IMG/VR virus record: IMGVR_UViG_3300027747_004722
Span: 35,016-99,015 of that record
Strand: one strand, 5' to 3'
DNA: 64,000 nucleotides
Origin: a virus
A model generated the notes under the pieces. The model did no database searches and was not told where the DNA came from. It saw nothing but the letters and a program-made list of their open reading frames with translations. This document shows, piece after piece, positions 32,494-35,108 of this stretch (positions are counted from its first letter, which is position 1; every line of letters starts with the position of its first letter). The translations under genes and the position numbers were made by a program.

Positions 32494-32501
32494 TTTCATG
32501 T

Positions 32502-32538
32502 GGGCCGGCCGGGACAAATTCCCGGCCGGCCCTCTTTT
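32502..32538 (+). terminator. Strong rho-independent terminator
   Basis: A 13-bp GC stem (32502-32514 with 32520-32532, loop CAAAT) followed by TCTTTT. It closes the 31888-32493 cassette. Confidence 0.9.
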
Positions 32539-32555
32539 GAACGAGAGGGACGAGA

Positions 32556-35108
32556 ATGGAGGACGCCAAGAATGAGCGAGGTCGGATGCTGGATAATACC
32601 CAAGTCAATCACATCGAGTTGTGCGCCGGGTACGGCGGAATTGGTCTCGGACTATCAAGAGTTGTCCGAAATCTGCGCACAGTCGCTTTTTGTGAGATCG
32701 AAGCCTTCGCCGTCGCGAACCTGGTCTCTAAAATGGAAGAGGGACTCCTGGACCCAGCTCCTATTTGGTCGAATATCAAGACTTTCGACTTCGGAAAGTT
32801 TCACGGACTGGTGGACATCATCTCTGGCGGGTATCCGTGCTTCAAAGCAGGAACCATCGTCTGCACATATAGAGGATTCATCCCCATCGAGCAGGTCGTC
32901 GTTGGAGACATGGCTCTCACTCATCTCGGAAGGTGGCGAAGGGTCACCGCCGTCATGTCTAAACCTGGCGCCCCTGTCAGAAGGATCAAGGCGCAGGGCG
33001 TCCCGGGCATCGTCTGCACCGACGAACATCCCTTCTATACAAGGGACGGATGGAAGGACGCCAAGGACCTCAAGCGAGGGGACAGAATCGGTCAGGTGCT
33101 CCCTGAGGTTGTGGAGGACGACAGAAGCCCCGAGTTCTGGTGGGTCATCGGACGATACCTCGCAGACGGATGGAGACAGAAGCCTCCAACCCAGCATTGT
33201 GGAAGAATCACAATCTGCTGCGACCACAAGGAGGCGGACTTCCTCCAAGATAAAATCGCCGCCGCAGGGTTCCACTTCTATAGGAACACAGAAAGAACCG
33301 TCACTAGATTTGCCATCGTCAAGAAAGAACTCTACGAGTTCTGCGGACAGTTCGGATCCGGAGCCGCTGGAAAGCATCTCCCTGGATGGGTTCTTGGCCT
33401 TGATTCCGAACGGGCGAGGGCCCTCTGCAACGGCTACTTCACCGGAGACGGCCACAGAAGCCACAGATCAGGAAGTAAGTGGAGCGCCACAACAGTCAGC
33501 AGGGGCCTGTCTGTTTCTTTCGCCCTCCTCGCTCAAAGGGCTTTCGGAGTGGTTGCTTCAGTCAGAAAGCAGGAAGTCAAACCCAAAACAATCATTGAGG
33601 GCCGAACTGTCAATCAGCGACCCCAGTATATACTTACGGTTCCTGACCGAAATCGATCCGGAAAGGTTGAGGGAAACTACGGCTGGAAGTACGTCAGACA
33701 CAACGAGCCATGCGGAGTTGCCGATGTATACAACATCGCCGTCGACGAGGACGAGAGTTACTACGCCGACGGGGCCATCGTCCACAACTGCCAGCCGTTC
33801 TCCGCAGCAGGAAAGCGAAAGGGAAAAGAAGACGAACGACACCTCTGGCCCTGGATCGCAGATGGCATTCGACTTTGTGAACCAAGACTGTGCCTCTTCG
33901 AGAACGTCGAAGGACACATCTCGCTGGGACTCTCCACAGTCGTCAGCGACCTGGAAGAAATGGGTTACGATGTGTCGTGGGGAATATTCAGCGCGGCTGA
34001 AGTCGGCGCCCCTCACCAGCGCAAGCGGGTCTTCATTCTCGCCGCGAGAGATGGCTGGATGGCCCTCGCCGACCGCATCGGACTCGAACGCCCGCGGGAC
34101 GTCGCAGGGCAACAGGAATTCCCCGAACTTGCCCATATCGGTTCTGGAGAACGAAGCCGCGTGGCCGACGCCCCGCACGACGGACACGCAGGCGGGGCGG
34201 GGGTGTGTGCAGATAGGGAAGGGTCTGTACAGGCCGAGCAAGGCTCTGGAGGAGGGAAAGCTCGTCGGGGGCGCAAACCTCGCGGACGCGGTGACGGAGG
34301 GGTGGCCGACGCCTCGGACGCAGGACTCGAAGCACGGGGAGTGCACCCAGTACGAGCTCAACAGGGACAAGGGGAAGGACCTGCTCCATGTGCGGGTGGA
34401 AAGAGAGAAGATGTGGCCCACGGCTACGGCGAGGGACTGGAAGGACAGCCCGGGCATGTCGACGGTCTCGAAGAACCCGGACGGCTCCGTGAGGAACAGG
34501 ACGGACCTCCTTCCCCGCGCCGTGTACGCGCTTGGCCAGCAAGGCCAGGACAACAGCAATTCTGGTGGGAGCCTCCCCGCGTCGTCGGGCCAGTCCCAGC
34601 AAAACTGGCAGACTTTTGCGCCAGGAACCAACTGCAGGGGGGAGACTCCCCACAGGCAGGTGGTGAAGGCTCTGGTGAACGGGGACAAGCTGAAGACGCA
34701 GTGCCTCACGGTGGACCAGGTGTTCGCGGAGGAGATCAAGGGCACGAACAAGCAGAGGGAGACCTGGCCGACGCCGGTGGTAACGGACAGCATCGGCTCG
34801 GGGAACAGGAACCTGGAGGGCTCGAAGGCCCACGCGGGGGAGAGCCTGACGGACGTGGTGAACGGCGGCCAGAAGGCGAGGGTCAGCAAGAACACGGGCA
34901 AGCTGAACCCCCGCTGGGTGGAGACTCTCATGGGGGTCCCAGTTGGCTGGACCATGCCGAGCTGTACCTCTCCTGTGACAATAGAACCGACGAGCTGAGG
35001 CTACTCGGCAACGGCGTGGTGCCGGCAACCGCGGAGACCGCCTTCAGGATCCTCCTCGCGGAGATGTGGCAAAAGAGCCTCGGCGGACCTTCGCCAAGGG
35101 ACATATAG
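32556..35108 (+). CDS. DNA cytosine-5 methyltransferase with intein
   Basis: 850-residue precursor. Motif I is IELCAGYGGIGLGL; catalytic motif IV is GGYP(intein)CQPFSAAGKRKG; motif VI is LFENVEGH; motif VIII is VGAPHQRKRVFIL; motif X is RLLGNGVVPATAE near the end. Between VIII and X the frame translates to Gly/Arg/Glu-rich low complexity, and the +1 frame has genome-typical codon use there. The target-recognition part is therefore in doubt (see the overlapping gene). Likely modifies phage DNA to escape restriction. An intein occupies residues 95-411. Confidence 0.85.
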   Translation: MEDAKNERGRMLDNTQVNHIELCAGYGGIGLGLSRVVRNLRTVAFCEIEAFAVANLVSKMEEGLLDPAPIWSNIKTFDFGKFHGLVDIISGGYPCFKAGTIVCTYRGFIPIEQVVVGDMALTHLGRWRRVTAVMSKPGAPVRRIKAQGVPGIVCTDEHPFYTRDGWKDAKDLKRGDRIGQVLPEVVEDDRSPEFWWVIGRYLADGWRQKPPTQHCGRITICCDHKEADFLQDKIAAAGFHFYRNTERTVTRFAIVKKELYEFCGQFGSGAAGKHLPGWVLGLDSERARALCNGYFTGDGHRSHRSGSKWSATTVSRGLSVSFALLAQRAFGVVASVRKQEVKPKTIIEGRTVNQRPQYILTVPDRNRSGKVEGNYGWKYVRHNEPCGVADVYNIAVDEDESYYADGAIVHNCQPFSAAGKRKGKEDERHLWPWIADGIRLCEPRLCLFENVEGHISLGLSTVVSDLEEMGYDVSWGIFSAAEVGAPHQRKRVFILAARDGWMALADRIGLERPRDVAGQQEFPELAHIGSGERSRVADAPHDGHAGGAGVCADREGSVQAEQGSGGGKARRGRKPRGRGDGGVADASDAGLEARGVHPVRAQQGQGEGPAPCAGGKREDVAHGYGEGLEGQPGHVDGLEEPGRLREEQDGPPSPRRVRAWPARPGQQQFWWEPPRVVGPVPAKLADFCARNQLQGGDSPQAGGEGSGERGQAEDAVPHGGPGVRGGDQGHEQAEGDLADAGGNGQHRLGEQEPGGLEGPRGGEPDGRGERRPEGEGQQEHGQAEPPLGGDSHGGPSWLDHAELYLSCDNRTDELRLLGNGVVPATAETAFRILLAEMWQKSLGGPSPRDI
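32838..33788 (+). other. LAGLIDADG intein in the cytosine methyltransferase (317 residues)
   Basis: It begins with Cys (CFKAGTIV) and ends VHN, followed by the catalytic Cys of the PCQPF motif as +1 residue. Block B is CTDEHPFYT. Two LAGLIDADG-type motifs are visible: WVIGRYLADGW and ALCNGYFTGDGH. This is a full, potentially mobile intein. Confidence 0.92.
33862..34998 (+). CDS. Overlapping +1-frame gene or displaced target-recognition region (WPTP-type)
   Basis: 378 aa if started at ATG 33862. From about 34050 this frame shows the GC3-rich codon choice of the genome, while the methyltransferase frame does not. Repeated WPTP/WPSP motifs (AGWPSPTASDS, EGWPTPRTQDSKHG, MWPTATARDWKDS, TWPTPVVTDS) and LNPRWVETLMGVPVGWT are the marks of a known phage methyltransferase-associated family. 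The first 60 residues (ASSRTSKDTS...) overprint motifs VI-VIII. It could be a separate protein or be joined to the methyltransferase by frameshifting or two indels. Confidence 0.6.
   Translation: MAFDFVNQDCASSRTSKDTSRWDSPQSSATWKKWVTMCRGEYSARLKSAPLTSASGSSFSPREMAGWPSPTASDSNARGTSQGNRNSPNLPISVLENEAAWPTPRTTDTQAGRGCVQIGKGLYRPSKALEEGKLVGGANLADAVTEGWPTPRTQDSKHGECTQYELNRDKGKDLLHVRVEREKMWPTATARDWKDSPGMSTVSKNPDGSVRNRTDLLPRAVYALGQQGQDNSNSGGSLPASSGQSQQNWQTFAPGTNCRGETPHRQVVKALVNGDKLKTQCLTVDQVFAEEIKGTNKQRETWPTPVVTDSIGSGNRNLEGSKAHAGESLTDVVNGGQKARVSKNTGKLNPRWVETLMGVPVGWTMPSCTSPVTIEPTS

Follow-up and report, generated by a model that had tools for sequence, protein, structure and literature searches.

The question raised by this locus is whether the 3' part of a viral cytosine methyltransferase gene encodes one protein or two, and what the second protein would do. 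The window analyzed here is a 64-kb stretch of a 99-kb IMG/VR virus record. An earlier note on this DNA claimed that two overlapping frames both look coded over this part of the gene, and it named an overprinted second gene, programmed frameshifts and sequence errors as possible explanations. The dual coding proved to be real, as the substitution phase, a stop test and conservation tests exclude chance, and the overprinted gene was the explanation that gained support, with both frames open and conserved.

Two overlapping frames in the methyltransferase locus

Two long ORFs, alpha in frame A and beta in the +1 frame, occupy the locus, and their features are as follows.

32556..35108, + strand: alpha, C5-cytosine DNA methyltransferase in frame A (single ORF of 850 aa; Pfam PF00145, E 1.6e-26; PHROG 363, E 3e-49)
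32558..32562, + strand: GGAGG, possible Shine-Dalgarno sequence for the beta ATG at 32572, 9 nt upstream of it (sequence)
32572..34998, + strand: beta, overprinted +1 ORF with W-P-T-P modules and motif IX (open frame; PHROG 1008, E 4.6e-23; purifying selection)
32838..33788, + strand: intein of 317 aa, just 5' of the catalytic Cys codon in the PCQP motif IV (domain matches)
33949..34059, + strand: where the strongly conserved core of beta begins (TWKKWV...), over the DNA of alpha motif VIII (conservation)
34005-34043, + strand: alpha motif VIII, GAPHQRKRVFILA (sequence)
34060..34083, + strand: beta module 1 anchor, WPSPTASD (sequence)
34162..34185, + strand: beta module 2 anchor, WPTPRTTD (sequence; the alpha frame reads VADA here)
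34303..34326, + strand: beta module 3 anchor, WPTPRTQD (sequence)
34414..34437, + strand: beta module 4 anchor, WPTATARD(WKDSPGM...) (sequence; common to unrelated phages)
34533..34580, + strand: conserved island of the alpha frame inside the TRD zone, WPARPGQQQFWWEPPR (conservation beyond what beta accounts for)
34765..34788, + strand: beta module 5 anchor, WPTPVVTD (sequence)
34903-34950, + strand: beta motif IX, LNPRWVETLMGVPVGW (M.HhaI alignment via fused homologues)
35001..35033, + strand: alpha motif X, LLGNGVVPATA (sequence; the PHROG 363 match extends to alpha residue 833)

Alpha contained motifs I-VIII and X, including the catalytic PCQ of PF00145 enzymes, which reads PCQPFS once the intein is removed. 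Motif IX was missing from the alpha ORF, whereas a PF00145 enzyme carries I-VIII and IX in the same polypeptide. A segment resembling the consensus EPxVGRVAHGVPxRVDRL was retained in alpha, and motif X started 3 nt beyond the beta stop, within the alpha ORF. The +1 frame was stop-free from 32500 to 34998, and beta would comprise 808 aa if ATG 32572 is its start. The WPTP-type motifs reported earlier were indeed present in this frame, but their number is five rather than four when counted as W-P-(T/S)-(P/A) (34060, 34162, 34303, 34414 and 34765). Beside these tandem modules, the +1 product carried LNPRWVETLMGVP, which aligns to motif IX of M.HhaI, and its C-terminal end was LNPRWVETLMGVPVGWT. 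Searches of Pfam and NCBIfam with beta returned no family, and a beta-only profile gave no meaningful match among solved structures. The family matched by beta, PHROG 1008, is labeled 'DNA methyltransferase' in PHROGs, and several phage records annotate alpha alone or beta alone. No tRNA or Rfam element was found near the locus. An antisense ORF of 465 aa (33558-34955, minus strand) had a weak PHROG_38519 match; because the reverse frames of relatives contain stops, this ORF is probably just a by-product of methyltransferase conservation.

The intein was recognized by matches to Intein_splicing, LAGLIDADG_3 and Hint_2 (Pfam) and to intein_Cterm (TIGR01443). It was absent from a relative, L009, that is 96% identical elsewhere, and was therefore gained or lost recently. 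In Propionibacterium phage B22 (L196), an intein occupies the same position as in the window. The intein stretch was also stop-free in the +1 frame (0 stops versus 3.1 expected, P=0.006, in this single case), which fits translation of beta through the intein. That beta in the window must be read through 951 intein bases counts against the explanation favored below.

Selection on the two frames

Along the gene, the codon score preferred frame A up to motif VIII, the +1 frame over 34044-34901 and frame A again at motif X. Over 34044-34901, the score was 0.23 per codon in the +1 frame versus -0.03 in frame A. The GC3 of this region was 0.88 in the +1 frame and 0.52 in frame A versus 0.73 in window genes. 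The relative L009 is an independent contig from another sample that is 96% identical to the window over the C-extein and differs by one 141-base (47-codon) indel; the region of beta module 2 contains the 141-nt module that L009 lacks. A comparison of synonymous constraint per frame in relatives, proposed in the earlier note, gave a clear outcome for this pair: the codon changes in the TRD zone were 23 synonymous and 4 non-synonymous in the +1 frame, and 1 and 28, respectively, in frame A. The substitutions were distributed 24/7/2 over frame-A codon positions 1/2/3, and other pairs of relatives revealed the same phase pattern (18/3/6, 18/5/5, 25/6/10 and 45/23/14). These codon-change counts, together with the phase in the other pairs, indicated that the +1 frame is the constrained frame in the TRD zone.

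A stop test was performed on 65 representatives (<75% identity). Frame A contained 33 stops in the TRD zone versus 277 expected from reshuffled +1 codons, with none in 59 of the 65 representatives; all 33 were confined to six loci, mostly loci in which the other frame holds motif X. The shuffle tests disregard relatedness among loci, but the third frame (376 versus 366 expected) and the flanking genes (1939 versus 1891) were nonetheless at expectation. In the 65 representatives, the +1 frame had no stops over the DNA of motif VIII, the final 150 nt of the I-VIII region, versus 49 expected. In the 33 representatives of the window's subfamily, it had none over the whole I-VIII region versus 74 expected, and its conservation there was above that of the shuffles (Z 63, with a third-frame control of Z 22). 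The dual conservation that had been claimed for 33860-34050 was also recovered; the +1 frame was above synonymous shuffling of frame A, most strongly over LSDLEALGYDAEW and TWK, and the start of the beta core gave Z values of 22 and 16 against synonymous shuffles.

Over the TRD zone, frame A was weakly constrained outside its island. The island itself comprises 16 residues with the consensus W(P/A)xRPGExQxxWEPPR, and its conservation in 17 representatives was 4.57, whereas beta would account for 0.43 (Z 27). Because frame A stays open and has its own conserved island, we conclude that both frames are used. In an overprinted pair both frames are selected over the same DNA, as was found here from the codon changes of beta and from an alpha that is free of stops and carries the island. 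A programmed frameshift would leave constraint on the joined frame alone, whereas here both frames stay open past the junctions.

It is extremely improbable that the +1 frame merely mirrors a methyltransferase gene that is conserved and GC-rich. Conserved genes do look conserved when they are read out of frame, and the control frame was also above the shuffles, but the codon changes of 23:4 versus 1:28 refute this reading; the substitution phase, the stop test with its controls, AT-rich relatives (L028, 37% GC) and the modules that lie outside alpha also speak against it. Indels introduced near 34055 and 34985 by assembly or sequencing, which would have broken one continuous frame, have next to no probability; no evidence in their favor was found, and L009 shows the same frames in a separate sample with 96% identity and the one 141-nt indel. 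The layout of the window is repeated in about 165 further loci and its phase in about 188, so the suggestion that a sequence error joins the frames could be set aside.

Motif IX, homologues and the proposed two-subunit enzyme

We collected 200 loci, and motif IX lay at +1 relative to motifs I-VIII in 188 of them, the window included; as the collection was made mostly with beta motif-IX patterns, this proportion is not the frequency among C5-methyltransferases. Motif X was in the I-VIII ORF in 165 of the 188 loci. Well over 100 relatives, both viral and bacterial, show the two-in-one layout. Each locus contained 0-9 module anchors, with a median spacing of 38 aa. In eight split loci (L034, L042, L057, L192, L200, L206, L207 and L210), the modules, motif IX and motif X were all in the +1 frame. 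In the fused enzymes of actinophages, motifs I-VIII, L-P-T-P modules, IX and X were all in one frame, and the counterpart of the beta end, RLSARFAEWMMGWP, came after the L-P-T-P modules in frame with I-VIII and X. Four single-frame actinophage loci (L194, L195, L205 and L208) had additional L-P-T-P modules over motif VIII that are read in the +1 frame, which gives the impression that modules shift from one frame to the other. The methyltransferase of Komagataeibacter phage phiKX1 (L005, 2092-3738) contained an in-frame insertion whose other frame is an HNH-like protein, which resembles the hidden HNH insertion of PMC11855218. Among plasmids, a tblastn search with window beta gave one weak Streptomyces match, and beta of Acinetobacter phage ABMM1 as the query found 9 plasmids. 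No phage description of the alpha/beta overlap was found in the literature.

A profile of the fused homologues aligned the beta segment LNPRWVETLMGVPVGW with M.HhaI 271 ff. (LHPRECARVMGYPDSY), which is motif IX; the score for the second domain was low by itself, yet the alignment was co-linear. The AlphaFold2 model of alpha revealed a confident catalytic domain and helix X, and the position of the small domain was unstructured, with pLDDT <50 for the majority of residues 176-227 and 247-258. Using this model, Foldseek matched only about 170 residues of M.HhaI. In the AlphaFold2 model of the fused enzyme (7 sequences), the one model with modules, the modules were disordered, and the recognition-domain fold therefore remains putative.

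Upstream of motif VIII, +1 stops occurred at the expected rate in about half of the loci, and beta therefore starts inside alpha in those loci. In the window's subfamily, beta is best read as spanning the entire alpha gene, in most cases with an AUGUG or ATGnnATG double start. The predicted starts of 66 subfamily loci were paired as [AG]TGTG (41/66), ATGnnATG (10/66) or nearby ATG codons for both frames (12/66), and no ATG was found in 3/66. The predicted layout of the window differs, with the alpha ATG at 32556 (or 32586) and the beta ATG at 32572. Initiation in both frames is possible at AUGUG sites in E. coli and varies with the Shine-Dalgarno spacing (PMC9841429). At the other end, beta outruns the alpha stop by 103-694 nt in five loci (L027, L028, L030, L033 and L150), which have one to five extra W-P-T-P modules past the alpha stop.

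Both frames are conserved and open, the motifs are assigned to one frame or the other, and homologues exist in single-frame and split form. Three points go beyond the earlier note: motif IX is in the +1 frame, the +1 ORF extends back as far as the alpha start, and the split and fused homologues explain the overlap. Judged from sequence, the +1 product is most likely the DNA-recognition partner of alpha. We consider it probable that beta is the overprinted subunit of a C5-methyltransferase that consists of two polypeptides, like M.EcoHK31I; alpha and beta would be made separately and would assemble in the manner of M.EcoHK31I or M.AquI. In one-chain C5-methyltransferases, motif IX organizes the recognition domain. 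In the proposed enzyme, alpha would be the catalytic subunit with the AdoMet-binding and catalytic motifs I-VIII plus X, and beta would contribute the W-P-T-P array at the TRD position followed by motif IX, both of which are missing in alpha. The two would be translated separately from nearby start codons and would assemble into one active methyltransferase; each beta module may read one DNA target, and methylation may guard the phage DNA from restriction. It is an evenly balanced possibility that the second frame of this widespread phage methyltransferase family, with its shared double start, holds an exchangeable module array, in which the gain or loss of a module of about 40 codons alters the specificity of beta while alpha gains a tolerated linker.

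One long enzyme could instead be made if programmed ribosomal frameshifting moved translation from A into +1 and later returned it to A. The motif order of I-VIII (A), TRD and IX (+1) and X (A) would indeed amount to one complete enzyme, and frame A shows little constraint in the TRD zone apart from its island. Such a model requires two shifts, but it requires neither an open frame A over the TRD (33 versus 277) nor an open +1 frame over I-VIII (0 versus 74), and it leaves the conserved alpha island, the closely spaced double starts and the overrun of the alpha stop by beta with more modules unexplained. We regard it as very unlikely, and the frameshift joining A, +1 and A proposed earlier conflicts with two frames that are both open against expectation. 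If alpha were a complete methyltransferase, beta could be a separate accessory protein, such as an anti-restriction or regulatory protein, that shares only the DNA with it. The EPxVGRVAHGVPxRVDRL-like segment and motif X retained in alpha would agree with this, as would the N-terminal part of the subfamily beta, which lies outside any known C5-methyltransferase. However, the actinophage enzymes join the modules and IX in frame with I-VIII and X, motif X is located in beta in the split loci, and alpha is without IX, which makes an accessory beta unlikely.

Comparison with known systems

To our knowledge, cellular genes and phages seldom have long same-strand overlaps that are conserved throughout. 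The alpha/beta overlap is old and recurrent across many lineages, and it suggests that many phage and prophage annotations of 'DNA cytosine methyltransferase' may describe just one of two subunits; a codon-recoded clone of the annotated gene would therefore destroy the partner. Additionally, under the preferred two-subunit reading, the family provides a natural collection of AUGUG double-start genes, and its modules may be a source of new methylation specificities.

The gene of the M.EcoHK31I small subunit lies in another frame inside the large-subunit gene. M.EcoHK31I (YGGCCR) consists of two polypeptides, with I-VIII and X in the large subunit and motif IX confined to the small one (PMC3404938, background paragraph), and the window is similar to it when compared by description. 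In contrast to M.EcoHK31I, the window-type beta has tandem W-P-T-P modules, spans the whole of alpha in the window's subfamily with double starts and may outrun the alpha stop, and the window alpha contains an intein. M.AquI is naturally divided behind motif VIII and carries IX in its second polypeptide (PMC3404938); its motif X is in the second polypeptide as well, as in the eight split loci above, whereas that of the window is in alpha.

The multispecific C5-methyltransferases of phages SPbeta and phi3T (EMBO J 15:1434) have tandem recognition modules between VIII and IX, the position of the putative recognition array found here; their modules are in one frame and one protein, whereas the W-P-T-P modules are only putative recognition modules and lie in a second frame. 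The actinophage proteins Tweety gp72, prophiGD91-2 gp27 and prophiFVLQ01-1 gp6 contain the same I-VIII, LPTP modules, IX (R-L-x-x-x-F-x-E-W-M-M-G-W/L-P) and X, but in a single reading frame, unlike the window. Streptomyces phage Samy gp49/gp50 consists of a catalytic half and a PHROG_1008 half that overlap in the +1 phase, although gp50 holds the motif X that is in alpha in the window. Finally, overlapping AUG and GUG starts also feed two frames in the E. coli AUGUG double-start genes (PMC9841429); those are a handful of cellular genes, whereas here the family is conserved and both products are long.
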